Source: Colwellia sp. (GTDB lineage: Bacteria; Pseudomonadota; Gammaproteobacteria; Enterobacterales; Alteromonadaceae). From it: DNA of 64,000 nt. Positions 38,146 through 60,142 of the stretch are shown piece by piece (positions within the stretch are counted from its first letter, which is position 1; every line of letters starts with the position of its first letter). The stretch lies in NCBI GenBank assembly GCA_013215295.1, contig JABSOZ010000003.1:434001-498000 (forward strand). Reading direction: 5' to 3'. The notes beneath the pieces were generated by a model. That model saw nothing but the letters and a program-made list of their open reading frames with translations. It searched no databases and was not told the DNA's origin. The position numbers and the translations under genes were made by a program.

Positions 38146-38191
38146 AATCCATTGTAATCAAAATTAATAATAAATTGTGGTAAGGACATAT

Positions 38192-40403: not shown

Positions 40404-41107
40404 TGAGAGGAAATAATAAAGTCCTCGCTTTTATTGGCGCAAGAAGTGGTTCTAAAGGGCTTAAAGATAAAAACATAAAGCAACTTAATGGTAAACCATT
40501 GATGGCTTGGACTATAGAAGCTGCTCTTGCAAGCGATTTTATTGACTCAGTGGTTGTATCAACTGATTCTGAAGAATATGCTGAAATAGCTAGCCGTTTT
40601 GGTGCGCAGGTGGTTTTACGTCCTGAGGAATTAGCAGGGGATGACGCATCTTTAATGGCCGCACTACAGCATGGATATCAACAAGTTCAAGAAAAACTTG
40701 GTGACTTTGAGACGCTGATTAATTTACAGCCGACTTCACCACTTCGCACATCTGAGCATATTGATGAAGCATTGACACTTTATTCTCAATATAAGGTGGA
40801 AAATAATGTAAGAGTTTTTTCTTGTCTTTCGGTACCTGCAAAATATGCGTGGATTATGAATTGCGACCAACAGGGGTATGCGCAATTTGTTGACAAAGAA
40901 GAGCAGAAAAAAACCGTTCATGCACGTCAAAATAATAAAGGTATCATGCTACCTAATGGGGCTATTTTTATCTTACCTGCGAGGGACTTAACACAATTTT
41001 ATAATGGTAAATGTATACCTTATATAATGAATGAACCAGACTCGATAGATATTGATACCTTAGATGATTTTGAAAAAGCAGCTAAAATTATGCTTGAAGT
41101 AAACTAA
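40403..41107 (+). CDS. neuA: CMP-nonulosonic acid cytidylyltransferase (NeuA/LegF)
   Basis: About 234 residues. N-terminal AFIGARSGSKGLKDKNIKQL is the CTP-binding motif of the NeuA/LegF/PseF group; NLQPTSPLRTSEHIDEAL is also conserved. It activates the nonulosonic acid as its CMP form, the donor for transfer to flagellin. The ATG at 40403 overlaps the ptmE stop (TGATG). The exact sugar isomer is not certain. Confidence 0.92.
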   Translation: MRGNNKVLAFIGARSGSKGLKDKNIKQLNGKPLMAWTIEAALASDFIDSVVVSTDSEEYAEIASRFGAQVVLRPEELAGDDASLMAALQHGYQQVQEKLGDFETLINLQPTSPLRTSEHIDEALTLYSQYKVENNVRVFSCLSVPAKYAWIMNCDQQGYAQFVDKEEQKKTVHARQNNKGIMLPNGAIFILPARDLTQFYNGKCIPYIMNEPDSIDIDTLDDFEKAAKIMLEVN

Positions 41108-44206: not shown

Positions 44207-45778
44207 ATGGGGTCTAGTATGCAAACGAAATTAAAAGTAAGTGAATTACTTGAGCAAGTAAAAGAATTTGATCAGGCGGGAAGTTTTCTTCAACTGTTAG
44301 ATGCAGTAAATATATTACTGTTAAAAGATCCAAATAATAGCGAATATGTACTATACAAATTAAAAGCACTGGACGGGCTTGGGAAAGTTAATTCTGATAT
44401 GAAATTATTAGAACATTATGTCAACATTCGCAGCACTGATTCCACAGGTTTTATACTTTTATATCAAGCATGTTTAGAGAATAAAGATACTGCGGGTGCG
44501 CTTATCGCATTAGCATATGCGTTAAGTGTTAATCCTGACGATGAACAGTGTATGGTTTTACTTTTAGACCTACTTAATAAAGTTGATCCGAAGTATAAAC
44601 GCGTAAAAATAAATATTTTGACGGTTGTGCGAATTGGTCATTTATCGAGTGAAATTGAACCTTTAATGAGAAAAGTCAAAGGTCAAGATGAGCAAGATTG
44701 CTTATACCTTTTTGTTAGTAATACGCCGACATCTTGTAATTCTTACCTGCTTTCATTGTTGAAAAATATCTCTCATATAGTAGTCTCGCCTTTTTGGTAT
44801 CAGTTTTATGTGTCGCGTCCGACATTACTTGATGACTTTTTCTTTGCTGATTTTCCTTATGATGTTAATGGTTCTTTAAGAGGAAAAAGTAACACAGATA
44901 TAAACACTCAAGGATTCAGAAACTTAGTTAATATTTATGAAAATTACCCGAAGTGCACTGAAATACCTCCTAGCGATGAAAATAAAGCTTGGCAAATTCT
45001 TTCCGCATTAGGAATAAAAAAACTTGATAAAATTGTATGTTTTCATGTAAGGGACAGCGCCTATTTATCAAGCGTTAATTCAAGTCTTAATTTTTCCTAC
45101 CATGATTTTAGAGATGCTAAAATTGAGAGTTATAAAAAAGCTATTGAACATCTTATTTCTCAAGGATATAAAGTTGTCCGCATTGGCGTAAACTCCAATC
45201 AAAAGCTTGAAATCAATGATCCTAATTATTTCGACTTTTGTTTGCAAAGGGACAAAGTTCATGGTGATTTAATAGAAGTTTTCATTCTCAACGTTTGTCA
45301 ATTTTTTATTGCTAATTTTGGTGGACCTTATGGTATGGCTGCTATGTTAGACACACCGACCTTAGTGGTTAATGGTGTTCCAATTCAGCAACCTTATATG
45401 AAATACGGTCGTTTTATTCCAAAACGATTGTTTAAAGGCGATAGTGAAGTTAATTTACTTGACGTTTGTGCGGGTAAACCATTATCCGAAAATAATAAGA
45501 CTCCTATTTATTTAAGTTTTAACAGTACTGAATTTGAAAAGTATGGATATCGTTATGTCGATAATACAGATGACGAAATTTATCAAGCCGTTGCTGAGTT
45601 TGAAAAATTGGTTGAAAATCGTATTCTAAATATGACATTGACAGAAAAACAAATGGCATATTTTAATGCTTTACCGGATGCTTTTTGCCATAAAAACAAA
45701 TGTGTAATCACAGACAGTTTTTTGACGGCGCATGAACATACATTTAAATTGGCGACTAGATTGGTTGAGCAAATATAA
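44207..45778 (+). CDS. TIGR04372-type glycosyltransferase with TPR-like N-terminus
   Basis: 523 residues. About 150 helical, TPR-like N-terminal residues precede a region resembling the TIGR04372 glycosyltransferase group (CFHVRDSAYLSS, GYKVVRIGVNSNQ, FFIANFGGPYGMAAMLDTPT). Such proteins occur in polysaccharide and protein glycosylation loci. No membrane segment is seen, so it would act in the cytoplasm. The likely role is to attach the sugar made by the following genes. An AAGGA site supports the first ATG. Confidence 0.75.
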   Translation: MGSSMQTKLKVSELLEQVKEFDQAGSFLQLLDAVNILLLKDPNNSEYVLYKLKALDGLGKVNSDMKLLEHYVNIRSTDSTGFILLYQACLENKDTAGALIALAYALSVNPDDEQCMVLLLDLLNKVDPKYKRVKINILTVVRIGHLSSEIEPLMRKVKGQDEQDCLYLFVSNTPTSCNSYLLSLLKNISHIVVSPFWYQFYVSRPTLLDDFFFADFPYDVNGSLRGKSNTDINTQGFRNLVNIYENYPKCTEIPPSDENKAWQILSALGIKKLDKIVCFHVRDSAYLSSVNSSLNFSYHDFRDAKIESYKKAIEHLISQGYKVVRIGVNSNQKLEINDPNYFDFCLQRDKVHGDLIEVFILNVCQFFIANFGGPYGMAAMLDTPTLVVNGVPIQQPYMKYGRFIPKRLFKGDSEVNLLDVCAGKPLSENNKTPIYLSFNSTEFEKYGYRYVDNTDDEIYQAVAEFEKLVENRILNMTLTEKQMAYFNALPDAFCHKNKCVITDSFLTAHEHTFKLATRLVEQI

Positions 45779-45817
45779 GAGAAGTCGTTTTATCAAAAAA
45801 TGATTAAAGAGGTAAAA

Positions 45818-46918
45818 ATGAAAGTAGGCTATTCCTATCTAGCAAAACAATTTGCAGATCCTGACGCTATTTTGGCTGATATTAAAGCGCTGGTTATATC
45901 GGGTGACTTTACTTTAGGCAAAGCTACGGTTGAGTTTGAAGATAAATTCGCAAAATTAATTGGCTGTAATTATGCTATAGGCGTAAATTCTGGTACTGAT
46001 GCATTATTTCTTTCCTTAAAAGCTTTAGGTATTGGCGTAGGTGATGAAGTTATAACAACAGCCAATACTTTTGTTGCTACTGTTGGGGCAATTGAAACAT
46101 CGGGTGCTCGTACAGTCTTTGTCGATTGTAATGATAAATATGTGATGGATACCTCGCAACTTGAATCAGCAATCACTGACAAAACAAAAGCTATTATGCC
46201 TGTTCATTATGCAGGCCAGCCAGTTAACATGAAAGAAGTGATGGCGGTTGCAAAAAAATATGACTTAGAGGTTATAGAGGATGCATGCTGTGCAATTGGC
46301 GCTTCTTTTGATAACCAAAATTGTGGCACTATCGGAACTACAGCGGCATTTAGTCTTCATCCCTTGAAAAATTTAAATGTTTGGGGAGACGGTGGTGTGA
46401 TCACCACTAACTCGAAAGAGATTAAAGACAAATTACATTTGCTGAGAAACCATGGCATGGTCGACAGAGACCATTATGCTGAGTATGCATATAATAGTCG
46501 TCTTGATAGTTTACAAGCAATTGTCGGTAATCATTTGATATCTGATGTTGAGTGGATAACTCAGCAGCGTATAAAGCATGCACAAACATTAGATCTTGCA
46601 TTTAAGGGGTTAAGTCAGGTAATTACAATTCCTCCTAAGGCTGTGAATGAAAAATGCGTATATCACATGTATATGCTCTTGGTTGAAAACCGCGATGCAC
46701 TAAATGAATACCTTAAATCTAAGGGAATAAGTTCGAAAATACATTACCCTATTCCACTTCATTTACAACAAGCCAGTCAGCACTTAGGTTATAAGTTAGG
46801 AGATTTTCCCGTAGCTGAATCTCAGGCTAAAAATATAATAACTTTACCTATTCATCAACATTTAACTGCTGATGAAATTGATTATATGATTAAAACTGTT
46901 AACGAATTTTACTTATAG
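45818..46918 (+). CDS. DegT/DnrJ/EryC1-type sugar aminotransferase 1
   Basis: 366 residues, PLP-dependent. Schiff-base lysine Lys184 in SLHPLKNLNVWGDGG; also GVNSGTDALFLSLKALG and the Asp of EDACCAIGA. It converts a keto sugar nucleotide to an amino sugar. The N-terminus (GYSYLAKQFADPD) is unlike LegC, so it is probably not the missing legionaminic aminotransferase. The start at 45818 follows AAAGAGG. A paralogue begins four bases after its stop. Confidence 0.9.
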   Translation: MKVGYSYLAKQFADPDAILADIKALVISGDFTLGKATVEFEDKFAKLIGCNYAIGVNSGTDALFLSLKALGIGVGDEVITTANTFVATVGAIETSGARTVFVDCNDKYVMDTSQLESAITDKTKAIMPVHYAGQPVNMKEVMAVAKKYDLEVIEDACCAIGASFDNQNCGTIGTTAAFSLHPLKNLNVWGDGGVITTNSKEIKDKLHLLRNHGMVDRDHYAEYAYNSRLDSLQAIVGNHLISDVEWITQQRIKHAQTLDLAFKGLSQVITIPPKAVNEKCVYHMYMLLVENRDALNEYLKSKGISSKIHYPIPLHLQQASQHLGYKLGDFPVAESQAKNIITLPIHQHLTADEIDYMIKTVNEFYL

Positions 46919-46922
46919 GTGC

Positions 46923-48032
46923 ATGATGAAAGTTCCATACGTAGATATTGCTGAACAATTTTTTGAGATAGAAGACCAGGTGATGTTAGCTATTCAAAAA
47001 GTTTTATCTTCAGGCAAATATATTCTGAGTGAACAGGTTTCACTTTTTGAAAAAAACTTTCGAGAGTTTTGTCAATGCAAGTATTCTTTTGGCGTTGCCA
47101 ATGGCACAGACGCTTTAATCATTGCGATGAAAGCTTTAGGGATTCAAGAGGGAGATGAAGTTATAACGCCTGCAAACTCATGGGTTTCTTCAACATCTTC
47201 TATAGCAATCTGTGGTGCTACTCCTGTTTTTGCTGATATAGGTAGTGATTTGCAAATTTCAGTGCAGGACATTGAAAAAAAGATAACGTCAAAAACTAAA
47301 GCTATTATGCCTGTTCACCTTGCTGGTAAAATGGCAAATATGAAAGCCATAATGGCTCTTGCAGCAAAGCATCATTTGTTTGTCATTGAAGATGCAGCAC
47401 AAGCTGTAGGTGCTAGTTATGAAGGACAGGCAGCGGGTACTATCGGGGATATTGGTTGTTTTAGTCTACATCCGCTTAAAAACTTGAATGCTGCTGGCGA
47501 TGCAGGTGTTATCACTACCAATAATAAAGCTTTAGCACAGAAAATAGCTTTATTACGCCAGCATGGTTTAGCGTCGCGAAATGATATTCAGCAATGGGGA
47601 TATAATTCTCGTTTAGATGAAATTCAAGCCGCTATTTTAAATTGTAAGTTTGTAGGTTTACCTGCGGTATTAGAAAAGCGTCATGCTAATGCTGAACTTT
47701 ATCGTTCGTTGTTATGTTCTGAAGTTGTTCTGCCAGATAAGTCAATTGTTGGGCATGATGCTAACCACCTTTTTGTTATCCAGTGTAAATATAGAGATGA
47801 ATTAAAGGAATACTTAAAGACATATGATATTTCTAGTGCCATACATTACGAAGTCCCTATTCATTTGCAGCCTGCGGCGCACTATTTAGGTTACAAGTCT
47901 GGAGATTTGCCAGAAACAGAGTTGAGCGCATTGCGTATTTTGTCGTTACCAATACATCAACACTTAACAAAAGCGCAAATTTTATTTGTGGCTGAAAAAG
48001 TTAATGAATTCTTTAAAATGAAAGGTCTGTGA
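46923..48032 (+). CDS. DegT/DnrJ/EryC1-type sugar aminotransferase 2
   Basis: 369 residues, a paralogue of the upstream gene. Lys186 in SLHPLKNLNAAGDAG is the PLP lysine; GVANGTDALIIAMKALG and EDAAQAVGASY match the family. Differences near the active site (AAGDAG versus VWGDGG) suggest a different substrate or step. Two aminotransferases in a row hint at a diamino sugar. Confidence 0.9.
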   Translation: MMKVPYVDIAEQFFEIEDQVMLAIQKVLSSGKYILSEQVSLFEKNFREFCQCKYSFGVANGTDALIIAMKALGIQEGDEVITPANSWVSSTSSIAICGATPVFADIGSDLQISVQDIEKKITSKTKAIMPVHLAGKMANMKAIMALAAKHHLFVIEDAAQAVGASYEGQAAGTIGDIGCFSLHPLKNLNAAGDAGVITTNNKALAQKIALLRQHGLASRNDIQQWGYNSRLDEIQAAILNCKFVGLPAVLEKRHANAELYRSLLCSEVVLPDKSIVGHDANHLFVIQCKYRDELKEYLKTYDISSAIHYEVPIHLQPAAHYLGYKSGDLPETELSALRILSLPIHQHLTKAQILFVAEKVNEFFKMKGL

Positions 48033-48036
48033 TTCT

Positions 48037-49695
48037 GTGAGAATAGGTATTGATTTTGATAATACAATTATTAATTATCATCATGTTTTTCACTCTTTAG
48101 CTTGCGAATTCAGTTACATTTCCGTAGATACACCTAAAGACAAAGAACAAGTGAAGCAAGCAATCATTGCCCATTATGGCAATGATCTACACTGGCAAGA
48201 ACTTCAATCTATTGCTTATGGGAAAGCTATTTTTCAGGCCGAAGCATTTGAAGGTGTTTTAGTTGCGCTTGAATCATTGAAAACAAAAGGCCATGAGTTA
48301 TTTATTGTTAGTCATAAAAGTGTTGCATCGCACTATGATCCAACGGTTCAATTAAGAGAATATGCACTCGATTGGTTGACCAAAAACTTCATTGTCAATG
48401 AAGCGCTAATTCATGACTCATCGTTATTTTTTCTTGAAAACCTAGAAGATAAAATATCAACTATAACAAGTCTAGATCTTGATATATTTATAGATGATTT
48501 AGATTTAGTTATTTTGCATCCAAACTTCCCCAAGAAAACTATCGCCATAGGTTTTGGCGAGAATAAATTGTCAACAGTTGAACGTTGCCATGATTGGCAA
48601 CAGTGTTTACAAACGTGTCTTGTCATTAGCAGTTTAGGCATAAATGAAACACAGTCTTGGTTTTCATTTGAAAAAGGTTTTCCACTGACAGCGAATGCAT
48701 TAACAAGGCATGGTAATAACCAGATTGTTGAAGTGGTTTCTCAAAGGAGTAAAAAGTACATATTAAAACGTTATTTTTCTTCTGAATTTGACAGCCGAAA
48801 TCGTGGGGAAACTGAATTCGAAGCACTAAAGCTTTTTTGTGAACATGAAATAAATAACACTCCTTATCCATATGTTTTTGACAATATAAATCAATACGCT
48901 TTTTATCAATATATAGAAGGTAGTAACCAAGTATCGGTTGAACACAGTGTAGAAAGTGCAAAAGCAATAACGCAATTTATTACTCAATTAAAGAATATTC
49001 ATCAAACAGCCGATACCCTAGTAATGGACCAAGCGTCTGATGCTAGAAATACGCTTGCAGATTATTTTGACAAGATAGAGTCAAGATTAAAATTAATAGA
49101 GATAGGTTGTGATCAAAACCTAGCTTTAACAGATGTAGAAATATTTATTAAAGAGGATTTTTGTTTATTTAAACAACAGGTTTTTACTCATGTACGCCAG
49201 AAAATCAAACAATTTTCTTTATCTGATAAGCAGGGTTTTTCATCGCATAGTAAAACGTTGAGTCCATCTGATTTAGGGCCACATAATATGCTTAAATCTG
49301 GTGATGATGATTTCAGTTTTATCGACTTTGAATATTTTGGTTTAGACGATGCATGCAAAATGATAGCTGATTTATTTCATCATGCGCAAAGAAGATTATC
49401 AGAAAAGTCTAAGTGGACTATATATCATGAATATTTAGCCCATATCGGAGGTAATGATGAATTTGTAAAGCGATTTGATATTGTTATCGACTTAATAGGT
49501 TTGGAGTGGATATTGATCGTATTAAATATTGCGGCCCCTGGAACAATTGAGCGGAGAGTTTTTGCCAACAATCATTTGGATGTTGGGCAACTTATTACCG
49601 AACGACTGGCTTTAGCAACCAATATGTTACAAGGTTTTAATGATATTGCTGATAAATCAGGACAATATTTAACGATAAATTGTGAGTCAGAATGA
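48037..49695 (+). CDS. HAD-like / aminoglycoside-phosphotransferase-like fusion
   Basis: 552 residues. The N-terminal 190 residues look like a HAD hydrolase: GIDFDNTI with nucleophile Asp6 and Asp8, a SHKS segment, and FIDDLDLVI. From about residue 220 on, the protein resembles the APH/choline-kinase fold, with SPSDLGPHNML (Asp412, Asn417) and FIDFEYF (Asp430) as catalytic and metal motifs. A phosphatase and a small-molecule kinase in one chain suggests paired steps on a sugar. GTG start, four bases after the aminotransferase. The substrate is unknown. Confidence 0.75.
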   Translation: MRIGIDFDNTIINYHHVFHSLACEFSYISVDTPKDKEQVKQAIIAHYGNDLHWQELQSIAYGKAIFQAEAFEGVLVALESLKTKGHELFIVSHKSVASHYDPTVQLREYALDWLTKNFIVNEALIHDSSLFFLENLEDKISTITSLDLDIFIDDLDLVILHPNFPKKTIAIGFGENKLSTVERCHDWQQCLQTCLVISSLGINETQSWFSFEKGFPLTANALTRHGNNQIVEVVSQRSKKYILKRYFSSEFDSRNRGETEFEALKLFCEHEINNTPYPYVFDNINQYAFYQYIEGSNQVSVEHSVESAKAITQFITQLKNIHQTADTLVMDQASDARNTLADYFDKIESRLKLIEIGCDQNLALTDVEIFIKEDFCLFKQQVFTHVRQKIKQFSLSDKQGFSSHSKTLSPSDLGPHNMLKSGDDDFSFIDFEYFGLDDACKMIADLFHHAQRRLSEKSKWTIYHEYLAHIGGNDEFVKRFDIVIDLIGLEWILIVLNIAAPGTIERRVFANNHLDVGQLITERLALATNMLQGFNDIADKSGQYLTINCESE

Positions 49696-49855
49696 TTTTT
49701 AGCGTTATTGATGAATTTATCTACAAACAAGCTATTTAAATACTTATTTTGAAGGTCTTGGTGCATATATTGCTTGAGTGATCATTAATAAAAATAACGT
49801 CAAAGACTATGATAAGCTTTTGGTAAAATGTGTTTTTTTAGAAAAGGTGGGTTAA

Positions 49856-50986
49856 GTGAAAGTTATACAATATGACGAAACATTACAGGAATACAATAGT
49901 GCTTTACTTAATACATTAAGAGGCTTCACGCCTAAGTACGAATTTATTGCAATTTGGGTACCCGATGCTGACTTATTAAGAAGTGTCATTTCATTAGTTG
50001 AAGCTGCTTTTTCTGAAGATGAATTTCAATTTACACTTAATTTTTCCAAAGAAACTATGCTGCCAATAAACAGAAAAGAGTTTGACCTTCGTTTAGCTGA
50101 TATCGCTATTTTTACTTCTGAAGAAACTGTAACAGGTGTCAACTATCACTTTAGTGATATGAAATCGAAAGACAGAAAGTTATCATTCCAAAAGAATCAA
50201 ATATTCAATCCAAACAGTAATGATAATAAAACAACGACACAACAGCAAAGTGAATTGAATGGCGATGAAATATATTTGAGTCAAATTAATTATTTCTGTG
50301 CGCATGCAAAGCACAACACCATGCTTGAAGAGGTTGACGTTTTAACGTTAATGACACTTTCAGAACAGAAAATAACGCTACAAGTTCAGATTGATCAGGA
50401 AAATGTTATACGTCACTTAGCTTATCATGGAGAATTGCCTTTAATACAAAAAGGTATATTTGAAGCTGCATGCCAGTTGCTTGTTAATTTACCGATAGAT
50501 GATATTCGTGATAATGGCCTTACCTTAATTGAATACCATTTAAGAAAAAATAGTAAACAAAGAAAAATGGCCGGTATTCAAGTGCATTTCAATTTTTCTG
50601 AAATTTTTTCTCCCTTAAAAGCGTTGTTATCAGTGTTGGTAAAACAATTAGAGAGCAAAAAAGTTAATTTTTTTGATATTCGAAACCAATTAACATGGGG
50701 TACTTCTCAAAGAGATGACATTAAGAAACAATTAAATGAGTCTATTAATCAGTATTTATCTGATGAAAATAAATCAGTCGGCATTGAAATTGATAATATT
50801 GATGAAAAAGCCAGAGTAACAATCATGCTTGGTGATGAAATATCAGCTAATGAAAAAGGGCAATTGCTCATGGACTTAGAAATTATAGTACGTAAGGAAG
50901 TACACCCAGCAATTCAACTTTATTCTACGCTTTATGTCGATAGAAATACAAAACGAAAAGGCCATCAGTGGGCGATTAACCTTTAG
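49856..50986 (+). CDS. Uncharacterised 376-residue protein
   Basis: I do not recognise this family. It is soluble, without signal or membrane segments. A Gln/Asn/Thr-rich linker lies near residues 115-135; around 185-225 is a helical stretch (GIFEAACQLLVNLPIDDIRDNG), and the C-terminus (VRKEVHPAIQLYSTLYVDRN) is distinctive. GTG start behind AAGGTGGG. It sits 160 bases after the fusion gene and 30 bases before the radical SAM gene, so it may be a partner or assembly factor for that enzyme. Confidence 0.75.
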   Translation: MKVIQYDETLQEYNSALLNTLRGFTPKYEFIAIWVPDADLLRSVISLVEAAFSEDEFQFTLNFSKETMLPINRKEFDLRLADIAIFTSEETVTGVNYHFSDMKSKDRKLSFQKNQIFNPNSNDNKTTTQQQSELNGDEIYLSQINYFCAHAKHNTMLEEVDVLTLMTLSEQKITLQVQIDQENVIRHLAYHGELPLIQKGIFEAACQLLVNLPIDDIRDNGLTLIEYHLRKNSKQRKMAGIQVHFNFSEIFSPLKALLSVLVKQLESKKVNFFDIRNQLTWGTSQRDDIKKQLNESINQYLSDENKSVGIEIDNIDEKARVTIMLGDEISANEKGQLLMDLEIIVRKEVHPAIQLYSTLYVDRNTKRKGHQWAINL

Positions 50987-51016
50987 CATTTTCGACCACA
51001 CATTTTGGAGAGAACA

Positions 51017-52129
51017 ATGGAAGACTTTACTGAAAAATTGATACTAGATGACACCAAAATAGGTTGGCATTTAGACCGTGTTGAAAAGTGGAAGCGTGGC
51101 GAAAAATTTGCACCTATCACAATTGATATGGCACTTACGCGTGCATGTAATTATTCGTGTGGTTATTGTTATGCCATGCTACAAGAAAATGATAGACATA
51201 ATATTGATCAGAAAGTGATTTACGACTTTCTTGAAGATTGTGCAGACATTGGTGTTAAAGGCATTAGTTTTGTTTCTGATGGTGAAAATACAATATCACC
51301 TGTTTTTGTTGATGCCGTTATTCGAGGTAAAGAATTAGGTTTGTCGATGGCTGTTGGTACTAATGGTTACGCATTGACTACTTCAAAGCTTGAAATGATT
51401 TTACCCCACTTAGATTACATTCGTATTAATATCTCAGCAGGCGAACCGAAACGATATGCAGAAATTATGGGGACTAGAGAAAAGGCCTTTGATCGTGTTT
51501 GTAAAAATATCCGTGAAATGGTACGTATTAAAAAAGAGAATAATCTGAAGGTTACGATTGGCATGCAAATGGTCTTAATGCCACAAGATAAAGATCAAAT
51601 TATGCCACTTGCAGAATTAGGCAAAGAACTAAGGCCAGATTACCTGGTGATAAAACACTGTAGTGATGATGAGGATGGTTCGCTCGGCATCGATTATGAT
51701 AAATATGAAGACTTGTATGATACCTTGCATGAAGCTGAAGCTTTGTCTGATGACGAATATAGTGTAGTAGTGAAGTGGTCGAAGATTCGTGCGAATGGTA
51801 AACGTTCATATCAAAAATGTTATGGCGCACCATTTATGTTGCAAATGTCGGGATCTGGCTTAGTTGCCCCATGTGGTATGTTATTTAATGAAAAATATAA
51901 AAAATTTCACATAGGTAATATCGTGGAAACACGCTTTAAAGATATTTATAACTCTGATCGTTATTGGGATGTTATGAACTACTTATCTTCTCCTGAATTT
52001 AATGCTCAAAAAATGTGTGGATCTTTATGTTTGCAGCATAAAGTTAATGAACAATTAGATGCTCATGTTAAAGGGAGTCCTTTACTACAGCCCGAAGGCA
52101 ATAAACCAATACACATTAACTTCATTTAA
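51017..52129 (+). CDS. Radical SAM enzyme with SPASM-like C-terminus
   Basis: 370 residues. Cys44, Cys48 and Cys51 (ACNYSCGYCYAM) form the radical SAM iron-sulfur motif CX3CX2C. A Cys-rich C-terminal region (KCYGAPFML, APCGMLF, MCGSLCLQH) probably binds a second cluster, as in SPASM proteins. Located among sugar genes, it could epimerise, deaminate or rearrange a sugar, or modify the partner protein. The ATG at 51017 follows GGAGAGA. The substrate is unknown. Confidence 0.88.
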   Translation: MEDFTEKLILDDTKIGWHLDRVEKWKRGEKFAPITIDMALTRACNYSCGYCYAMLQENDRHNIDQKVIYDFLEDCADIGVKGISFVSDGENTISPVFVDAVIRGKELGLSMAVGTNGYALTTSKLEMILPHLDYIRINISAGEPKRYAEIMGTREKAFDRVCKNIREMVRIKKENNLKVTIGMQMVLMPQDKDQIMPLAELGKELRPDYLVIKHCSDDEDGSLGIDYDKYEDLYDTLHEAEALSDDEYSVVVKWSKIRANGKRSYQKCYGAPFMLQMSGSGLVAPCGMLFNEKYKKFHIGNIVETRFKDIYNSDRYWDVMNYLSSPEFNAQKMCGSLCLQHKVNEQLDAHVKGSPLLQPEGNKPIHINFI

Positions 52130-52141
52130 AAAGTAGGCTTT

Positions 52142-53122
52142 ATGGAAACAATACTTATTACAGGTGGCGCGGGTTACGTTGGTGCAGTGCTTACACCAAA
52201 ATTACTTGATTTAGGTTATCGAGTTAAAGTCATAGATTTAATGATTTATGGTGAAAACGTTATTGCTGAGCATGTAAACTTAGAAATGACCAAAGGTGAT
52301 ATTAGAGATCAATCCTTGTTGAGTAAATTATTGGTTGGTGTTGATTATGTCATCCATCTCGCTTGTATCTCCAATGACCCTAGTTTTGATCTTAATCCTG
52401 AGCTTGGTCGAAGTATCAATTTAGATGCCTTTGAGCCCCTAGTAAAACTCTCTCAGAAGGAGGGCGTAAAACGTTTTGTTTATGCTTCATCTTCAAGTGT
52501 TTACGGGGTTAAAGATGTCGAGAATGTGAGTGAAGATATGGTCTTAGAGCCGTTGACTGACTATTCAGTGTTTAAGGCTGATTGTGAAAAAATACTCGCT
52601 AACTATACAAGTGATGATTTTGTAACAGTGACTATTCGCCCGGCAACTGTTTGCGGTTATTCACCAAGACAGCGTTTAGATGTTGTGGTAAATATATTAA
52701 CTAATTTTGCCTATCATAAAGGTAGTATTAAGGTTTTTGGTGGAGAACAATTAAGGCCAAATATCCACATTCAGGATATGACCAATTTATATGCCGAGTT
52801 ATTGACAATGCCAGCAGATAAAATTAATGGTGAGATTTTTAATGCGGGTTACGAAAATCAAAAAGTAATTACGTTGGCTCATACTGTTCAAGAAGTTTTG
52901 GGAGATGACATTACTATTGAGGTTGAGCCCACGGACGATAACCGTTCTTATCATATCTCTTCGCAAAAAATAAAAGATTGTTTAGGATTTACTCCACAAT
53001 TTACGATTAAAGATGCGGTAATTGAATTGAAGGATGCCTTTGATCAAGGTTTATTACCCAATGCATTAGATGATAAGCGTTATTTCAATATTAAAACCAT
53101 GCTTGATCTACATTTGGAATAA
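52142..53122 (+). CDS. NAD-dependent nucleotide-sugar epimerase/dehydratase
   Basis: 326 residues of the extended short-chain dehydrogenase family: GGAGYVGAVLTPKL for NAD binding, a YASSSSVYG strand, and catalytic YSVFK (Tyr and Lys). Substrate class (epimerase, dehydratase or reductase) cannot be fixed. It follows the radical SAM gene by 12 bases, and the transketolase gene starts one base after its stop, so these three are in one operon. Confidence 0.88.
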   Translation: METILITGGAGYVGAVLTPKLLDLGYRVKVIDLMIYGENVIAEHVNLEMTKGDIRDQSLLSKLLVGVDYVIHLACISNDPSFDLNPELGRSINLDAFEPLVKLSQKEGVKRFVYASSSSVYGVKDVENVSEDMVLEPLTDYSVFKADCEKILANYTSDDFVTVTIRPATVCGYSPRQRLDVVVNILTNFAYHKGSIKVFGGEQLRPNIHIQDMTNLYAELLTMPADKINGEIFNAGYENQKVITLAHTVQEVLGDDITIEVEPTDDNRSYHISSQKIKDCLGFTPQFTIKDAVIELKDAFDQGLLPNALDDKRYFNIKTMLDLHLE

Positions 53123-53123
53123 T

Positions 53124-53963
53124 ATGAAACTGCTAAAAAGGTTATCACTAGAACAACTGAAAATTATCCCTAAAAGAATAAATCAAGATATGCTTGATGT
53201 CTGTATTCCCGCAAGAGCAGGGCATATTGCACCATCGCTTTCTTGCACTGAAATTCTTGTCGCTCTTTATTATCATGTGATGAATATTGCTGAAGATCCT
53301 CACTGGGAGGGTCGTGACCGTATGATCTTTTCAAAAGCTCACGGTTGTTATTCTCTCTACGCTATTCTTGCAGATCTTGGTTACATACCTCAAAAACAAT
53401 GGCGTAACTTTTATCGAGACTCTGAATTATCAGGTTGTTCTGAACAAAATATAGATTTTGGGATTGAAGCGTCGTGTGGTTCTTTGGGGCACGGGTTACC
53501 TATGGCTGTAGGCCAAGCGTTTGCGGCTAAATTACAAAAGAAAGATATTAACGTTTATTGCATTATCGGCGATGGTGAAATGCAAGAAGGTACCAATTGG
53601 GAAGCTTTGCAATTTGCAAGTAAGTTTAAATTGGATAATCTCATCATTATTATTGATGCAAATAAACTTCAAGCAATGGACTTTGTTGATAACGTACTAA
53701 CAGACCAAGATATAATCTCAGATTTAACGGTGAAAATGCAGGCTTTTGGTTGTCATGTAGAGACATGCAATGGCCATTCGTTATCAGACTTACTCGATAC
53801 ATTTTCATCGTTAACATCCCGAGAACATGATAGTGGACCAAAAGCGTTGATAGCAGATACTATAAAAGGTCATGGCTTGAACTGTATGGAAGGTGTGGCT
53901 AAATTTCATTTTAGATTACCTAAAGAAGAAGATTTAGCGCAAGGGGGCTTGTATGAAAAGTAG
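53124..53963 (+). CDS. Transketolase N-terminal (TPP-binding) subunit
   Basis: 279 residues, matching the thiamine-diphosphate domain of transketolase: SKAHGCYSLYAIL, GSLGHGLPMAVGQAF, and the Mg-TPP motif GDG (149-151) to Asn180. It is a separate protein from the pyrimidine-binding half encoded by the next gene, with an 11-base overlap. Together they may move a two-carbon unit, perhaps to build a branched or longer sugar. Any role in central metabolism is less likely given the sugar-locus setting. Confidence 0.9.
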   Translation: MKLLKRLSLEQLKIIPKRINQDMLDVCIPARAGHIAPSLSCTEILVALYYHVMNIAEDPHWEGRDRMIFSKAHGCYSLYAILADLGYIPQKQWRNFYRDSELSGCSEQNIDFGIEASCGSLGHGLPMAVGQAFAAKLQKKDINVYCIIGDGEMQEGTNWEALQFASKFKLDNLIIIIDANKLQAMDFVDNVLTDQDIISDLTVKMQAFGCHVETCNGHSLSDLLDTFSSLTSREHDSGPKALIADTIKGHGLNCMEGVAKFHFRLPKEEDLAQGGLYEK

Positions 53964-54462
53964 TGCAGACAATCCTTATTATCGCAAAAATATTATTAAT
54001 AAGCTGACTAAATATATGGCAAGCAATGAAAAGTATGTGTTGTTCGTTTGTGATAGTGGTTTTGGTGTTATTGATGATCTAAAGACGCGTTTTCCTGAAC
54101 GAGTTCATAATGTTGGTATTATGGAGCAAGGTACTATTGGCATTGCTGCTGGTATGGCGCAAATGGGCATGATTCCGATAGTATATAGTATCGTTAACTT
54201 CCTCGCTTTTCGTTCTGTTGAGCAAATTAGAAATGATATTGTTCTTCAGCAAGTGAATGTGAAATTAATTGCTACCGGGGTTAATAATTACTTTAAATTT
54301 TTAGGTCAGTCTCATTGTTGTGATGAACAAGATAAAACCATTATGAATATGATTGGAATGCCAGTTTTTGATCCTTATGAAACTATGCCTAATGAAAATG
54401 AATATGATGAACTTGTAGATGAATGGCTCACATCACCCAACGCTGGATATATGAGAGTCTAA
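53953..54462 (+). CDS. Transketolase pyrimidine-binding subunit lacking the C-terminal domain
   Basis: 169 residues. It matches only the middle domain of transketolase, with the cofactor-activating Glu58 in GIMEQGTIGIAAGMAQMG, and stops at GYMRV, where the domain normally ends. Usual C-terminal subunits are about 300 residues. No coding continuation follows in another frame before the convergent gene, so this is not a simple frameshift. The third domain is not part of the active site in known transketolases, so the pair may still work. Confidence 0.85.
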   Translation: MKSSADNPYYRKNIINKLTKYMASNEKYVLFVCDSGFGVIDDLKTRFPERVHNVGIMEQGTIGIAAGMAQMGMIPIVYSIVNFLAFRSVEQIRNDIVLQQVNVKLIATGVNNYFKFLGQSHCCDEQDKTIMNMIGMPVFDPYETMPNENEYDELVDEWLTSPNAGYMRV

Positions 54463-54470
54463 ACAGATAT

Positions 54471-54512
54471 CACAGCAAGAGCTCCTAACCTATGACTTGA
54501 ACTCTTGCTGTT
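54471..54512. terminator. Hairpin between convergent genes
   Basis: ACAGCAAGAG pairs with CTCTTGCTGT across a loop of about 20 bases. It is placed between the convergent transketolase and epimerase genes; there is no good T run, so terminator activity is uncertain. Confidence 0.5.
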
Positions 54513-54531
54513 GTGTCTTATAATTTCAGTT

Positions 54532-55527
54532 TTATTTTTCTGATAAAGCGTCAAACCACTCTTTAGTCTCTACTGCGATTGATTCTTCATTCCAAACAGG
54601 GGCATTTTTCCAATAATCAATATGAGAAAGCATTTTGTTGACACCTTGTTCAAATGACACTTGAGGAAGCCAATTGGTTAGCTGTTTTATTTTTGATATA
54701 TCAGCAAATGTGCAATCTGGTTCACCTGGCCGTTTAGGAATGTAGCTTACTTCACCGCCGAGTAATGAGACTAACTTATTAATAGAATAAGTACCGCCAC
54801 TGCCAATGTTCATTATTTCATTACATTGCTTAACTTGAGCAACAGCCCAGATACCAGAAACTATATCTGAAATATACGTGAAGTCTCTAGTTTGCTCTCC
54901 ATCTCCCACAACTGTGTATGCTTTTCCTGCCAACTTTTGCGCTAAAAACACACCAAAAACTGCACCATACGTTCCTGATGTTCTCGAACGAGGACCATAG
55001 GCATTAAAGAATCGAGTTGAATTTACGGGTAGATCGTAAACTTTCCCCCAATGTAACACCATTTCTTCTGCTAACCTTTTAGTTAAAGCATAAGGGTACT
55101 CTACACGTATCTCGGCCTCTTCTTTAGTTGGAAATTCATCAGGAACCCCATAACAAGAAGCAGATGCAGCATAGACAAGTTTTTTCAGTGATGGAGCGCA
55201 TCTAGCCGCTTGGATAACATTCATAGTACCAATGACGTTGGACTTGAAGTATGCATCAGGGTCTTTTATTGAAGGTACAATATCAGCGAGAGCAGCTAAA
55301 TGAAAAACATAATCAGCATCTGTAAAATACTGTTTCATGCAAACATCGCTTTCTGAAATATCTAGTTCAACGATAGTAAGATTTTCATTGTGACTTTGAT
55401 GTGCTAAATTTTCAGGACGTCCTGAGGAAAAATTATCTAACACTAATGTTGAAATATTCATGTCTAATAATAAATCGACTAAGTGACTGCCAATAAAGCC
55501 ACATCCACCGGTAACAATTGCTTTCAT
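54532..55527 (-). CDS. NAD-dependent epimerase/dehydratase (UDP-sugar 4-epimerase-like)
   Basis: 331 residues: GGCGFIGSHLVDLL for NAD binding, YAASASCYG, and catalytic YALTK. It is close to the GalE/WbpP-type epimerases of surface polysaccharide loci. The start at 55527 follows AGGATG; the longer form adds a non-conserved leader. It is the only minus-strand gene in the cassette and has its own promoter region. Confidence 0.87.
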   Translation of the reverse strand: MKAIVTGGCGFIGSHLVDLLLDMNISTLVLDNFSSGRPENLAHQSHNENLTIVELDISESDVCMKQYFTDADYVFHLAALADIVPSIKDPDAYFKSNVIGTMNVIQAARCAPSLKKLVYAASASCYGVPDEFPTKEEAEIRVEYPYALTKRLAEEMVLHWGKVYDLPVNSTRFFNAYGPRSRTSGTYGAVFGVFLAQKLAGKAYTVVGDGEQTRDFTYISDIVSGIWAVAQVKQCNEIMNIGSGGTYSINKLVSLLGGEVSYIPKRPGEPDCTFADISKIKQLTNWLPQVSFEQGVNKMLSHIDYWKNAPVWNEESIAVETKEWFDALSEK

Positions 55528-55631
55528 TTTACATCCTATGTTTTTTTGGTCTGAAGGTTGCATCTGTTTTTAGATTACGTTGACAATAATTAAAGAAAGA
55601 TATCTAATTACTTAATTCTAAGGAGAATTAC

Positions 55632-56240
55632 GTGAATAAGCTAGACCAAATGTTTGAAAAGTCTTCTACCCCAGCTGATTACGCAAAAGATTATAATCAA
55701 TATCTTGTAAAAATATTATCAGCAATTGAAGGTGACGCATTTAATAATTACATTCAATTATTACTAGACGTCGCAAAATCAGGGAAAACAATATATATCA
55801 TAGGTAATGGTGGCAGTGCAGCGACAGCATCACATTATGCTAATGATATTAGCTTTGGTGTTAAAAGTGTATCCTGCGGTTTAAAAGCTATTTCGTTAAC
55901 TGATAATAATGCCGTTTTAACCGCGCTAGGTAACGATTATGGCTATGAGTATATTTTTTCTAAACAGTTAGAAAAAATTATGGTTGAGGGCGATATATTG
56001 ATTGCTATCTCGGCTTCTGGAAATTCTGAAAACATTGTTAAAGCTGTGGATTTTGTAAGGAATATAGGTAACAGAACTGTTGGTATATCTGGTTTTGATG
56101 GTGGTTACTTAGCCGAGCATAGCGATGTATCTCTTTTAGTGAGTTCTAATAAAGGAGAATACGGCCCTGTTGAAGATGTACACAGCATTATTGGCCATAT
56201 CACTGGTACTTATTTAGCTCGTCATTTTACTTGTGAATAA
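55632..56240 (+). CDS. SIS-domain sugar isomerase (GmhA-like)
   Basis: 202 residues. The phosphosugar-binding motif IIGNGGSAATASHYANDI and ISASGNSENIVKAV fit the GmhA/DiaA branch of SIS proteins. GmhA turns sedoheptulose 7-phosphate into heptose 7-phosphate. The next genes encode an HldE-like kinase/cytidylyltransferase and a nucleotidyltransferase, which supports a heptose-like role. GTG start with TAAGGAG upstream. Confidence 0.85.
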   Translation: MNKLDQMFEKSSTPADYAKDYNQYLVKILSAIEGDAFNNYIQLLLDVAKSGKTIYIIGNGGSAATASHYANDISFGVKSVSCGLKAISLTDNNAVLTALGNDYGYEYIFSKQLEKIMVEGDILIAISASGNSENIVKAVDFVRNIGNRTVGISGFDGGYLAEHSDVSLLVSSNKGEYGPVEDVHSIIGHITGTYLARHFTCE

Positions 56241-56299
56241 TGATAAGCCTTTGACTTTTAATATTAACTCAGATTATGAAAAACTAGGTGATTATTTCA

Positions 56300-57784
56300 A
56301 TGATTTCATTGCTCAATGACATTATACATAGCAAAAAAAGTCTAGGGAGAATTGTTCTAGTCACCGGTGATTTTAATATTTTACACCCAGGACACATTCG
56401 TTTATTACGTTTCGCGAAAGAGTGCGGAGATACCTTAGTGGTTGCTGTTAATAGTGATGATATTTTACAAAACGCTCAATATAACAATCAAGAAGACCGA
56501 TCTGATGTCATATCGTCCCTTAGCTTTGTCGATTACTGCTTTGTTAACGCATTACCTAGTGCTGAATTAATTGAAAAACTTCAGCCGAAAGCCGTGGTAA
56601 AAGGCCGAGAATATGAAGGGAAGTTTAACGCTGAGAAATTAGCTTTAGATAAATTAGGTGGAAAACTTATATTTAGTTCAGGATATACTTTTCAAAAGTC
56701 ATCATCTGTTTTCCAGCACGAAGGTAATCAACCTTTATTAAATGCGACTAAAGTATCAAGCTATATTAAGCGTCATAAAATAACGCGTGATGCGGTTACC
56801 CAAGTAATCGAAAACTTTAGTCAACTCAATGTACTTGTCATTGGCGACACTATTATTGATGAATATATGCAATGTAATGCGGTTGGTATGTCGCAAGAAG
56901 ACCCTACGATTGTTGTTACGCCCGATGAAAAAAAACTATTTCTTGGCGGAGCAGGTATAACCTCAGCGCATGCAAAGTCTTTAGGGGCTAAAAACGTCTC
57001 TTTTTATACCGTATTAGGTGATGATGAAGCAGGTGAATATGCTCAAGAGAAAATTTCAGAGTACCAATTAAATGCTAATACCTTTCAAGATGATACTCGC
57101 CCTACCACACAAAAACGTCGTTATCGTGTCGGTAATAAAACGCTATTAAGAGTGAATGATTTTCGTGATCACGATATCGGTGTTGATATTCAAGAAGCAA
57201 TATTAACAAAACTAGTGGCAGAAATTGACAATATTGATTTAGTCATTTTTTCAGATTTTAATTACGGCGTATTACCGCAATCTTTAGTGGATGCGATTGT
57301 CGAGCTTTGTAATGATAAAAAAGTAATGATCGCAGCAGACAGCCAAACGTCATCACAAGTGGGTGATATTTCTCGCTTTAGGAATGTCGATTTAATAACG
57401 CCTACTGAGCGTGAAGTCCGTGTTGCTTTGAATAATACGCGAGACGGTTTAATTATTTTGACAGAAAAACTCCATCAAAAAATGCAGTGTCATAATATTA
57501 TTGTCACACTTGCCGATGAAGGTGCGTTATTGCATGTTACCGATAGCGGTAAAATTAGAAGTTGGACAAACGACAAAATACCCGCGCTAGCGGCTAATGT
57601 AGTTGACCCTGCAGGGGCTGGCGACTGTATGCTTGCTTCAACGGCCATGGCTTTAGCTAGCGGCGGCGATTTATGGTTATCATCATTAATTGGCTCTGTA
57701 GCGGCTGCTTGCCAAGTATCTAAAGTAGGTAATCAACCACTTTCCTTCCAAGAACTGCAACAAGCGTTTGACCAATTACTATGA
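56300..57784 (+). CDS. Nucleotidyltransferase-PfkB kinase fusion, HldE-like with reversed domain order
   Basis: About 494 residues. The N-terminal 150 residues are a cytidylyltransferase-like domain with VTGDFNILHPGHIRLL (HxGH motif). From about residue 175 is a PfkB sugar kinase (VIGDTIIDEY, GGAGITSAHAKSLGA, DPAGAGDCML). Standard HldE has the kinase first and the nucleotidyltransferase second. It probably phosphorylates and activates a heptose-like sugar. An AGGTG site favours ATG 56300 over GTG 56288. Confidence 0.85.
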   Translation: MISLLNDIIHSKKSLGRIVLVTGDFNILHPGHIRLLRFAKECGDTLVVAVNSDDILQNAQYNNQEDRSDVISSLSFVDYCFVNALPSAELIEKLQPKAVVKGREYEGKFNAEKLALDKLGGKLIFSSGYTFQKSSSVFQHEGNQPLLNATKVSSYIKRHKITRDAVTQVIENFSQLNVLVIGDTIIDEYMQCNAVGMSQEDPTIVVTPDEKKLFLGGAGITSAHAKSLGAKNVSFYTVLGDDEAGEYAQEKISEYQLNANTFQDDTRPTTQKRRYRVGNKTLLRVNDFRDHDIGVDIQEAILTKLVAEIDNIDLVIFSDFNYGVLPQSLVDAIVELCNDKKVMIAADSQTSSQVGDISRFRNVDLITPTEREVRVALNNTRDGLIILTEKLHQKMQCHNIIVTLADEGALLHVTDSGKIRSWTNDKIPALAANVVDPAGAGDCMLASTAMALASGGDLWLSSLIGSVAAACQVSKVGNQPLSFQELQQAFDQLL

Positions 57785-58503
57785 CGCAAGTTAAAAAAGC
57801 TATATTACTTTCTGCCGGTTTTGGTACTCGGTTACGTCCGCTAACCAATACTTTGCCTAAGTGTCTTGTGCCAATCAACGGGAAACCCTTACTTCAAATT
57901 TGGTTAGAGCAACTGACTGAAAACGGCATTGAGGAGTTTTTAATCAACAGCCATTATTTATCAGAGCAGGTGCGTGAGTTTATTGAAAATTCAGTGTTTA
58001 AAAGTCATGTAACGATATTCCATGAACCTGAACTTCTCGGTACTTTAGGCACGTTAAAATCAACACTCGACTTTTGGAAAGATGAAAGTGTACTCGTTGC
58101 TCATGCAGACAACTTATGTCTGTGCTCATGGTCTAAATTTCAACAGCAATTTTTTAGCAAAAAGGATGATGTACTCGGTACTATGATGGTATTCAATACG
58201 GATACACCGAAAAGCTGTGGAATTATTGAATATAACGATTCAGGACGAGTGACTGCTTTTCATGAAAAAGTTGAAAATCCACCTTCTAATTTAGCCAATG
58301 CCGCAATATATATATTTGATCCGCGCGTCCGTCAGTTGATTGCACAATCAACGTTAAAAGAATCTGATATTAGCCTTCATTTGATCCCTCAATTATTAGG
58401 CAAGCTTAACTTTTGGCAAACTGATGGCTATTGTCGAGATATTGGTAGCATGGAAAGTTTGGCTAAAGCTGAATATGATATAAGCAAAATGAATCTTTAT
58501 TAA
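57781..58503 (+). CDS. Sugar-1-phosphate nucleotidyltransferase (HddC-like)
   Basis: 240 residues. N-terminal LLSAGFGTRLRPLTNTLPKC is the nucleotide-binding motif; VAHADNLC provides the metal-binding Asp. Similar to HddC, which makes GDP-heptose, and to other mannose-1-phosphate guanylyltransferases. Four-base ATGA overlap with the fused kinase gene indicates coupling. It ends the cassette. Confidence 0.87.
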   Translation: MTQVKKAILLSAGFGTRLRPLTNTLPKCLVPINGKPLLQIWLEQLTENGIEEFLINSHYLSEQVREFIENSVFKSHVTIFHEPELLGTLGTLKSTLDFWKDESVLVAHADNLCLCSWSKFQQQFFSKKDDVLGTMMVFNTDTPKSCGIIEYNDSGRVTAFHEKVENPPSNLANAAIYIFDPRVRQLIAQSTLKESDISLHLIPQLLGKLNFWQTDGYCRDIGSMESLAKAEYDISKMNLY

Positions 58504-58675
58504 GCCAAAATTAGCTTTTTATAAAGGTGATAACTCATCATTGAATAATTAACTTTTTAACGTGCCGTAATTTGTCAAATTAATGACCTTATACCGTCAA
58601 TTTTTTGTTGCTTATTTAGTGGATTTCGCTAAAATCAAAGTTATAGTTATCATAAATAGTGGTTTATTCATACAT

Positions 58676-60142
58676 ATGCAGGGTCAAAAACATGTTCTTG
58701 TCGTTGATAACGACATTGCAAGGCGCGATCAAATAGCTACCGTATTATCATTTGTTGGTGAACATTTTCATGCATGTTCTGATGAAGATGTTGATGAATA
58801 TTTTAACGATTCCGATAATATTCTAACTGTTATATTATGCGGTAAGGTCAGTGATTTACTCGTTAATTTTGTCAAACACCACCCTGAGACCCCTTTTATA
58901 CTACATGATGTTCTTGATGCAACACTGCTTAAGGAAGCTGTAAATGTATTAGGCAGTTTAGCTGTGCCATTAAATTATGCCCAACTTACCGAACAAGTAC
59001 ACCACTGTCATCAATACCATAACCAATTACCCTCAAAAAGAAGCTATGCTGGCCCTAGTTCGCTATTTCGTTCATTAATTGGCACGAGTGAACCTATGCT
59101 ACAAGTTCGATTTTTAATTGAACAAGTCGCGTGTACACAAGCGAGTGTGCTCATTCTAGGTGAATCAGGTACAGGTAAAGAAGTCGTGGCCCGTAATATT
59201 CACAACTTGTCTGACCGTAGTAAAGGACCTTTTGTACCAATTAACTGTGGCGCTATACCGGGCGAATTGCTCGAAAGTGAATTGTTCGGGCATGAAAAAG
59301 GCGCGTTTACCGGCGCTATATCTACCCGTAAAGGACGTTTTGAAATGGCGGAAGGCGGTACTTTATTTCTTGATGAAATTGGTGATATGCCTCAACCCAT
59401 GCAAGTAAAATTATTACGTGTTCTGCAAGAACGTACTTTTGAACGAGTGGGTGGGGCAAAGAGTATTAAAACTAACGTCCGTATCATTGCTGCGACACAT
59501 CAAGATTTAGAAGATATGATCACCGCAGGAACATTCCGTGAAGATCTCTTTTATCGTTTGAATGTTTTTCCTATTGAAACACCTTCGTTGCGTGAACGAA
59601 AAGAAGATATTCCCTTACTCATTAAAGAACTTATTTCTCGCTTTGAAGTTGAACAAGGGCAAAGTGTACGTTTCACTGAGCAAGCTATTGAATCTTTGAA
59701 GCTACATGCTTGGGCAGGTAATGTTCGTGAGTTATCTAACTTAATTGAACGTATGATAATTATGTTTGCTGAACAAGTCGTCAATGTGAGTGAACTGCCG
59801 AAAAAATACCGTCATATTGATGTAGAAGAATATCAACCTGAATACCCTGATGAGTTGCAGGAACGTGATGCAATAAATGAGCTATTCTCCGGTTTTGACT
59901 ATGACGACGAAGACAAAACAAGTTTTGATCACGAAATAGAAAGTTCATCTATGGTTGATGTATTGCCAAACGATGGATTGAATTTAAAAGAATACTTAGC
60001 AGACCTTGAAGTCTCAATGATAAACCAAGCACTTGATAAAAATGATTGGGTTGTGGCTCGTTCGGCTGAATTATTAGGCATGCGCAGAACAACACTTGTT
60101 GAAAAAATGCGCAAGTATAGTTTGCAAAAGCAGAGTAATTAA
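58676..60142 (+). CDS. flrA: Sigma-54-dependent flagellar master regulator FlrA
   Basis: 488 residues. An N-terminal receiver-like domain lacks the phospho-acceptor Asp (ILCG where LxxD is expected), as in FleQ/FlrA. The central AAA+ domain has Walker A GESGTGKE and the sigma-54 contact loop GAFTGA at 209-214; the C-terminus has a Fis-type helix-turn-helix. It activates class II flagellar genes. The start at 58676 matches the family; upstream in-frame codons are not conserved. No sigma-54 element precedes it. Confidence 0.95.

Follow-up and report, generated by a model that had tools for sequence, protein, structure and literature searches.

Flagellin glycosylation islands that depend on Maf are known in Aeromonas and Campylobacter, the desosamine pathway proceeds through DesI-DesII-DesV, and in the known heptose route GmhA acts after a transketolase product. 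Parts of a 2025 review (PMC12247030) describe E1-type, split-transketolase and acetolactate-synthase-like thiamine diphosphate (ThDP) enzymes as branch-adders on keto sugars, with YerE in yersiniose and E1-type enzymes in kibdelomycin and aldgamycin as examples. For miharamycin and amipurimycin a split transketolase is proposed; according to the same parts, split transketolases have only been proposed as branching enzymes so far, and the 13 candidates given there all come from Streptomycetes. We describe herein a cassette of 13 uninterrupted open reading frames (ORFs) at positions 44207-58503 of a 64,000-nucleotide stretch of DNA from Colwellia sp. (the window; GenBank assembly GCA_013215295.1, contig JABSOZ010000003.1, positions 434,001 to 498,000). 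The cassette encodes a split transketolase, a radical SAM enzyme and heptose-type enzymes, and is bordered by flrA at one end and by a nonulosonate operon plus a Maf-like gene at the other. Our overall view, held as fairly likely, is that it makes a nucleotide-activated branched-chain amino sugar on a heptose base, most likely put on flagellin in the cytoplasm in this organism. This view is built on gene content, conservation of the unit, interchange of ThDP enzymes, active-site changes in the transketolase, predicted folds and genomic position. An earlier reading of the same DNA from its letters alone (the sequence-only reading) had delimited the same range and called it a sugar-biosynthesis cassette; the gene families bear this out, all genes that it listed are intact ORFs, and the families that it named hold. 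As a whole, its interpretation is partly supported.

The locus resembles the ThDP branched-sugar pathways in that a carboligase from one of these three classes stands beside enzymes resembling those for keto and amino nucleotide sugars. In the review (the parts of PMC12247030 used here) each class is treated in its own pathways, whereas here one core goes with all three; moreover, this core (the radical SAM enzyme, a 376-residue protein termed U376, and the heptose-type enzymes) occurs in Gram-negative flagellar and other loci and on phage contigs. With the GDP-heptose modification of Campylobacter jejuni (Cj1423-Cj1427), as presented in parts of PMC10680097, the cassette shares GmhA, a kinase, a nucleotidyltransferase and a Cj1427-like dehydrogenase; however, the kinase is HddA in that route and a PfkB-type HldE fusion here. 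The cassette also has ThDP, radical SAM and aminotransferase genes on top. None of the C3/C5-epimerase or C4-reductase set of C. jejuni was identified in it, although no dedicated search for that set was made. As in the desosamine pathway, there are two aminotransferases and a radical SAM enzyme whose predicted fold is structurally closest to DesII. However, the enzyme scores 38 bits against the DesII ammonia-lyase model TIGR04426 (curated cut-off, 450), the two NAD-dependent sugar enzymes (SDR1 and SDR2) lack the 4,6-dehydratase motif, and some carriers lack aminotransferases; membership of the desosamine pathway was rejected on the score and on these carriers, and the pathway was kept as a hint to mechanism. 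As in the Maf-dependent islands, a Maf-like gene, nonulosonate genes and flagellins lie together, but the window has, in addition, another sugar cassette, not of nonulosonate type, that includes radical SAM and transketolase genes. The system is a variant of known branched-sugar and flagellin-glycosylation systems, and the surprise is a core common to bacteria and phages.

A conserved core and its ThDP carboligase

At E 1e-30 the radical SAM protein was found in 2/147 genomes of the family, one being the window's own, and a scan of GTDB contigs gave 51 loci in many phyla with a radical SAM protein at 64-78% identity. The carriers include Pelagibacteraceae, SAR116, Rhodospirillales, Myxococcales, Elusimicrobia, Omnitrophota, Verrucomicrobia, Campylobacterota and others. 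Relatives of U376 are present in 44/51 of these loci and HldE-like fusions in 36/51. In the 31 loci that reach 17 kb or more (the long loci; the 20 shorter ones were excluded), U376 relatives occur in 30, HldE in 29, GmhA and SDR2 in 21 each, SDR1 in 20, and the aminotransferases AT2 and AT1 in 16 and 15, respectively. A ThDP carboligase is present in all 31, namely E1-alpha/beta in 17, a split transketolase in 10 and an acetolactate-synthase-like enzyme in 6, two loci having both E1 and transketolase; the classes are supported by Pfam on representative loci. Since carrier genomes hold just 1-6 E1_dh matches each (transketolase-like included) in 0.8-10 Mb, chance alone would not be expected to place a carboligase within ~20 kb of a given gene. 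The cassette genes are thus associated beyond chance, because U376 (44/51) and the carboligase (31/31) recur in loci picked by the radical SAM gene. The neighbourhood search that the sequence-only reading had proposed had a divided outcome: the core genes recur together, partly at flagellar loci, but also elsewhere, so that recurrence away from flagella, which it had named as speaking against itself, was half found.

Three interchangeable carboligase classes make "branched" the best-supported part of the earlier interpretation, and we consider it quite likely that the product is a ThDP-branched sugar. On a radical SAM tree of 53 proteins (a quick search with SH-aLRT support only), at least 7 class changes are needed among 40 single-class rows; the starred branches alone require at least 2 changes per class, and the window's own branch is not firmly placed. 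One complete copy of the cassette lies on an Azospirillum oryzae plasmid, where its annotation is generic only (SDR, PfkB, SIS, SDR, E1 alpha, transketolase C-terminal, two DegT aminotransferases, hypothetical and radical SAM). The part of an Arcobacter genome paper available to us does not describe the cassette, and no description of the gene set was found in titles and abstract openings of the open-access literature. In the window, GmhA, HldE and the separate nucleotidyltransferase (NTase) are closest to Campylobacterota-like carriers, both transketolase halves are closest to a Lambdaproteobacteria locus (L023), and AT1, AT2 and SDR1 are clearly closest to the remaining carriers, the differences being small for SDR2 and the radical SAM enzyme; by these similarities the cassette looks like a mosaic.

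The split transketolase consists of TKN (53070..53963, plus strand; PF00456), the ThDP-binding half with a GDG..N motif, and TKC (53953..54462, plus strand; PF02779), the PYR half. The two-gene transketolase of the sequence-only reading stands, with Transketolase_N and Transket_pyr on two genes, and is refined in that the second gene, of 169 aa, is PYR only. The longest TKN start (53070) overlaps SDR1, and an ATG at 53124, just past the SDR1 stop, is likely the true start. In an alignment with the three ordinary transketolases also encoded by this genome, TKN and TKC keep the cofactor motif and the catalytic Glu of the PYR domain. They depart from the ordinary enzymes at PGHPE, GGSAD, YTHDS and GEDGPTH (the last His being retained), motifs whose roles we take as commonly assigned. 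They score below the transketolase cut-offs of NCBIfam, have no Transketolase_C match, and so differ from ordinary three-domain transketolases. The changed motifs are consistent with, though no proof of, an unusual acceptor, for instance a ketone. Partners of TKC length also occur in Campylobacterota, in a Pelagibacter and in a Lambdaproteobacteria locus, and two other loci (L036 and L045) have longer ones of 317-319 aa. Because other phyla also have the short form with PYR only, a broken or decayed transketolase gene was rejected.

The radical SAM/SPASM enzyme (51005..52129, plus strand) is of sugar type, with a DesII/BlsE-like fold by family match and predicted fold. Its probable partner is U376 (49856..50986, plus strand), for which a structure prediction gives an N-terminal domain, an IscU/NifU/SufU scaffold fold at ~135-270 and a C-terminal domain at ~283-362. 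The last of these may resemble the NFU fold, with other folds within 1 Z in the model, and no clear full-length match to U376 was obtained in a viral fold library. Unlike NifU/IscU/SufU scaffolds, U376 has no conserved Cys ligands for Fe-S (iron-sulfur) or Zn, and no cysteine desulfurase is found among the cassette proteins; a single column has Cys in >=25% of rows (27/34), and it is not aligned to a SufU Cys. With the ligand Cys missing, a role as Fe-S scaffold was not supported, and U376 as a one-off orphan was rejected once a conserved family had been found. Some carriers (L048, L049, L051, L052, L035, L039, L023, L054 and L005) have a second radical SAM/SPASM protein of ~360 aa, rSAMB. It goes with carriers where the cassette SDR1 and aminotransferases are missing, and in G064, a genome of a second genus of the family, it is 29% identical to the first radical SAM protein.

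Flagellar setting and rival explanations

The flagellar cluster of the window encodes FlgE/F/G-type, rod-binding/glucosaminidase, FlgK-type and FlgL-like proteins, three flagellins, FliD and FliS. By Pfam, the left border of the island is formed by the FlgL-like protein (our own label), the three short flagellins, FliD and FliS (28845..35569, plus strand), and the right border by an FlrA/FleQ-type regulator (58583..60142, plus strand; PF06490, PF00158). Sugar genes and Maf thus lie between flagellin/fliS and a regulator and vary among relatives, as in a flagellin glycosylation island. The range chosen by the sequence-only reading excludes two adjoining elements. One is the nonulosonate operon (35972..41107, plus strand), in which NCBIfam-type curated models identify LegB, NeuC and NeuB above their cut-offs, and a CBS plus NTP transferase (PtmE-like) and a CMP transferase-like protein below theirs. 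The other is a Maf/PseD-like flagellin glycosyltransferase gene (41266..43758, minus strand; PF01973, 153 bits; NF050051, 74 bits, below the cut-off of 670), the sole MptE-like match in the whole genome. The nonulosonate operon lacks LegC, and no LegC above cut-off occurs in the genome, which leaves the operon's aminotransferase unaccounted for.

G064 has a related cassette in the same fliS-flrA interval, bounded by FlrA at one end and by Maf, FliS, FliD and flagellins at the other. In Sulfuricurvum STA_16, a Maf gene and two flagellin genes are ~10 kb away from the cassette, which has a FliD-like ORF (judged by eye) on its far side. Four genomes of the window's genus have flrA, and the interval between fliS and flrA was read in three of them, flrA in the fourth (G101) being near a contig end. 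In two (G130 and G069; L086-L089) the interval contains nothing but small ORFs and a flagellin-like ORF, and the third (G025; L090, L091) has a different, partly sugar-type gene set and short flagellins. Comparative position in the window's genus, the second genus and Sulfuricurvum therefore supports the flagellin target that had been suggested, and we think it likely that flagellin carries the cassette sugar in the window's organism. The flagellin-like ORFs are 488-588 aa long in G130 and G069, which have no sugar island, and ~270 aa in the window (30161-33129) and G025, which have islands. Could a glycan stand in for the flagellin outer domain in the island-bearing genomes?

A cassette specific to flagella, by contrast, is not upheld, as the same core occurs where no flagellin was found (12/33 carrier genomes), beside PglK-like ABC transporter genes (5/31 long loci) and on phage contigs. 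The genes might then make a surface polysaccharide or lipopolysaccharide sugar, their flagellar neighbourhood being an insertion at a tolerant site, and glycosyltransferase genes in several loci agree with this, as do the flagellin-less carriers and the transporter genes. Yet the second genus has its cassette in the same interval, Sulfuricurvum shows a Maf/flagellin setting, and two same-genus genomes with long flagellins have no such genes at the site. Moreover, no Wzx or Wzy family is found among the Pfam matches of the 13 proteins, as the sequence-only reading had said, and we regard a surface sugar as unlikely here. Another proposal is that the split transketolase acts upstream, giving a longer or modified ketose phosphate from which the GmhA-like isomerase and HldE lead to an unbranched long-chain nucleotide sugar. 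GmhA comes after a transketolase product when heptose is made by the known route, TKN, TKC, GmhA, HldE and the NTase are grouped here and in Campylobacterota, and the TKC end retains an Arg that aligns with the SRQ motif of transketolases. However, most carriers have an E1-alpha/beta or acetolactate-synthase-like enzyme and yet keep HldE (29/31) and often GmhA (21/31), and a carboligase step after the heptose enzymes fits because these enzymes stay when the carboligase class differs. That the transketolase merely feeds GmhA is unlikely, since other carriers swap in pyruvate-type carboligases and this genome has three ordinary transketolases; an unbranched product is accordingly quite improbable in our estimate. 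A third view splits the cassette into two unrelated adjoining pathways, with the aminotransferases belonging to the nonulosonate operon in place of LegC. The genome has four weaker LegC matches, AT1 and AT2 among them; on the other hand, relatives of these two stand beside U376 and radical SAM genes in L007, L019, L033 and the Azospirillum plasmid, with no nonulosonate gene found within the stretch, and we hold this division to be very doubtful.

Against a branched amino sugar put on flagellin stand several other points. The enzyme activities and the product of the cassette are predictions from sequence, the GmhA, HldE, HddC and DesII models are all matched below their curated cut-offs, and, with LegC missing, the nonulosonate route might be where AT1 or AT2 is used. 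Carriers were picked by the radical SAM gene alone, and the family hidden Markov models and our bit thresholds were built from the same loci (among which L041, L044 and L056 are near copies, likewise L049 and L052). In Campylobacterota loci and in G064, a second radical SAM gene takes the place of the cassette-type SDR1, AT1 and AT2, so the step order cannot be uniform across carriers. Exchange of the carboligase class is not free, since carriers of one class tend to group on the tree (9 changes with all groups against a shuffled mean of 18.8). No flagellin was found in the 12 carrier genomes mentioned, five Pelagibacteraceae for example, which makes the cassette a general one, with another target molecule elsewhere, although many of these are metagenome-assembled or single-cell genomes and may be incomplete. 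Carriers with a separate NTase have a flagellin within 30 kb in 7/13 cases against 0/23 for other carriers (Fisher p 2e-4), or 7/12 against 0/11 among genomes with a flagellin (p 5e-3), but these p values are uncorrected, the distances were known before the 30-kb limit was chosen, and the 7/13 cases are not independent, since they include the near copies L049/L052 and L044/L056. Finally, the four extra Cys are missing from 2/10 radical SAM relatives in phages.

Cassette genes and a proposed route

All cassette genes except SDR2 are on the plus strand, with spacings that run from small overlaps to 69 bp and a single 160-bp gap ahead of U376; promoter and terminator scans gave fewer sites than in shuffles. 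The first gene (44207..45778) encodes a TIGR04372-family glycosyltransferase (138 bits; cut-off, 45), the candidate transferase for the product, with relatives in 12/31 long loci at just 24-29% identity. Plasmid pDCAR1 of Solidesulfovibrio carbinolicus (L103) also encodes a TIGR04372 glycosyltransferase, along with several radical SAM proteins and an MptE-like (Maf-type) protein; its radical SAM protein is just 40% identical to the window's. AT1 (45800..46918) and AT2 (46923..48032) are DegT/DnrJ/EryC1- and DegT-family sugar aminotransferases, respectively (PF01041), the former up to 63% identical to AT1 of other carriers. Their best PDB matches are 3uwc, 7b0d and QdtB for AT1, and 7b0d, 3uwc, 7n63, 2oga and QdtB for AT2. 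With QdtB, WbpE and 2oga (which we take to be DesV) among the nearest solved structures of the two, the earlier suggestion of an amino sugar is plausible. The next gene (48037..49695) encodes an accessory protein of 552 aa, earlier called a HAD-kinase fusion. Its N-terminus is HAD-like (HAD_2, E 0.004, below the cut-off), but its second half matches no kinase family; the only match, Hex_IIIa (E 0.047), was taken as chance, and by eye the half would be APH-like. A GmhB-like phosphatase role is possible, and a relative among the carriers was found in L045 only.

SDR1 (52142..53122) is a Cj1427-like NAD-dependent nucleotide-sugar dehydrogenase by its best PDB matches (6vo6/6vo8, 135 bits); it retains YxxxK, has the motif SSSSVYG without the dehydratase Glu, and is absent from Campylobacterota carriers. 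SDR2 (54532..55563, minus strand; PF16363/PF01370; PDB 6dnt, 4zrm and 2b69) is a GalE/UXS-like nucleotide-sugar epimerase or oxidoreductase, 59-60% identical to SDR2 of other carriers. A 4,6-dehydratase role of either was not supported, since Ser stands where the window's LegB has Glu, in what we presume to be the dehydratase motif. Thereafter come a GmhA-like SIS isomerase of sedoheptulose-7-phosphate type (55632..56240; TIGR00441, 123.6 bits; cut-off, 209.45), an HldE-like fusion (56288..57784; PF01467 and PF00294), and the NTase, an HddC/RmlA-like sugar-1-phosphate nucleotidyltransferase (57781..58503; PF00483; HddC model, 70 bits; cut-off, 300). The domain order of the HldE-like fusion is reversed, with the cytidylyl/adenylyltransferase first and the PfkB kinase second; its HxGH and GAGD motifs are kept at >=90% across the family, and it scores below the curated cut-offs (TIGR02198, 200.3 against 345; NF008454, 185.6 against 521).

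A route can be proposed in which substrates, step order, product and acceptor follow from the enzyme families. A nucleoside diphosphate-heptose would be made by the GmhA-like isomerase together with the HldE-like kinase/nucleotidyltransferase, the separate NTase and perhaps the HAD phosphatase; SDR2 would epimerise this sugar and SDR1 would oxidise it at C4; oxidation of GDP-heptose at C4, as by Cj1427, is predicted for SDR1 from its nearest solved relative. Next, an aminated and/or deoxygenated keto sugar would arise through AT1 and the DesII-like radical SAM enzyme, the latter working with U376. The split transketolase would put a two-carbon hydroxyacetyl branch on the ketone, and AT2 would aminate the remaining ketone. 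The TIGR04372 glycosyltransferase would transfer the finished sugar to flagellin in the cytoplasm, perhaps atop a nonulosonate placed by Maf. That the steps follow in exactly this order is improbable.

Phage contigs and significance

A first scan of viral contigs with a radical SAM profile gave 10 contigs, all with a ThDP-enzyme match within 8 kb, and two further scans brought the number of distinct viral contigs with the radical SAM gene to 27 (IMG/VR). ThDP matches at E 1e-6 were counted on 21/27 (E1-alpha on 16, E1-beta alone on 1, acetolactate-synthase-like on 3 and split transketolase on 1), or on 16/27 with the bit thresholds used for bacteria. The six with no ThDP match (L105, L106, L111, L123, L126 and L130) include several that are short or cut close to the gene. 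GD...N is kept in 16/16 aligned viral E1-alpha ORFs, most having GD and then Asn and not strict GDG, which is contained in 9/19 bacterial E1-alpha rows. The 27 contigs also have HldE (19), GmhA (16), U376 (11), AT1 (9), SDR1 (8) and SDR2 (4) relatives, and this supports the cassette as a functional unit. Head or packaging genes were seen in the fetched stretch of 12/27, the other 15 having had no general-library search for phage genes. Three show the order portal-cassette-capsid (L104, L107 and L112), the portal adjoins the cassette in L122 and L128, portal and capsid adjoin it in L110 and L126, and a head-gene relative lies ~5 kb off in L120. A terminase is present in L105, L106, L111 and L114, the last two also having a head-tail connector. 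Annotated phage records gave 6 matches, all at 21-30% identity. The available part of a pelagimyophage paper notes that SAR11 phages have radical SAM and rfaE genes and does not describe the cassette.

These arrangements suggest, and no more, that phage head proteins are the target of the sugar in phages. A more general idea, which we put forward as doubtful, is that one mobile, radical-SAM-dependent branched-heptose pathway with a swappable ThDP carboligase coats self-assembling shells (flagellin and phage heads) in the cytoplasm. If the proposed function is true, the cassette would provide a genetic handle on a widespread, unnamed branched sugar, and would place split transketolases, possibly acting on ketones, in Gram-negative surface and flagellar loci. 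Three carboligase classes alongside one conserved core form a natural series, and the radical SAM enzyme and the degenerate IscU-fold protein are a conserved pair open to testing. In phages, the same genes may point to a phage-encoded decoration of the head.

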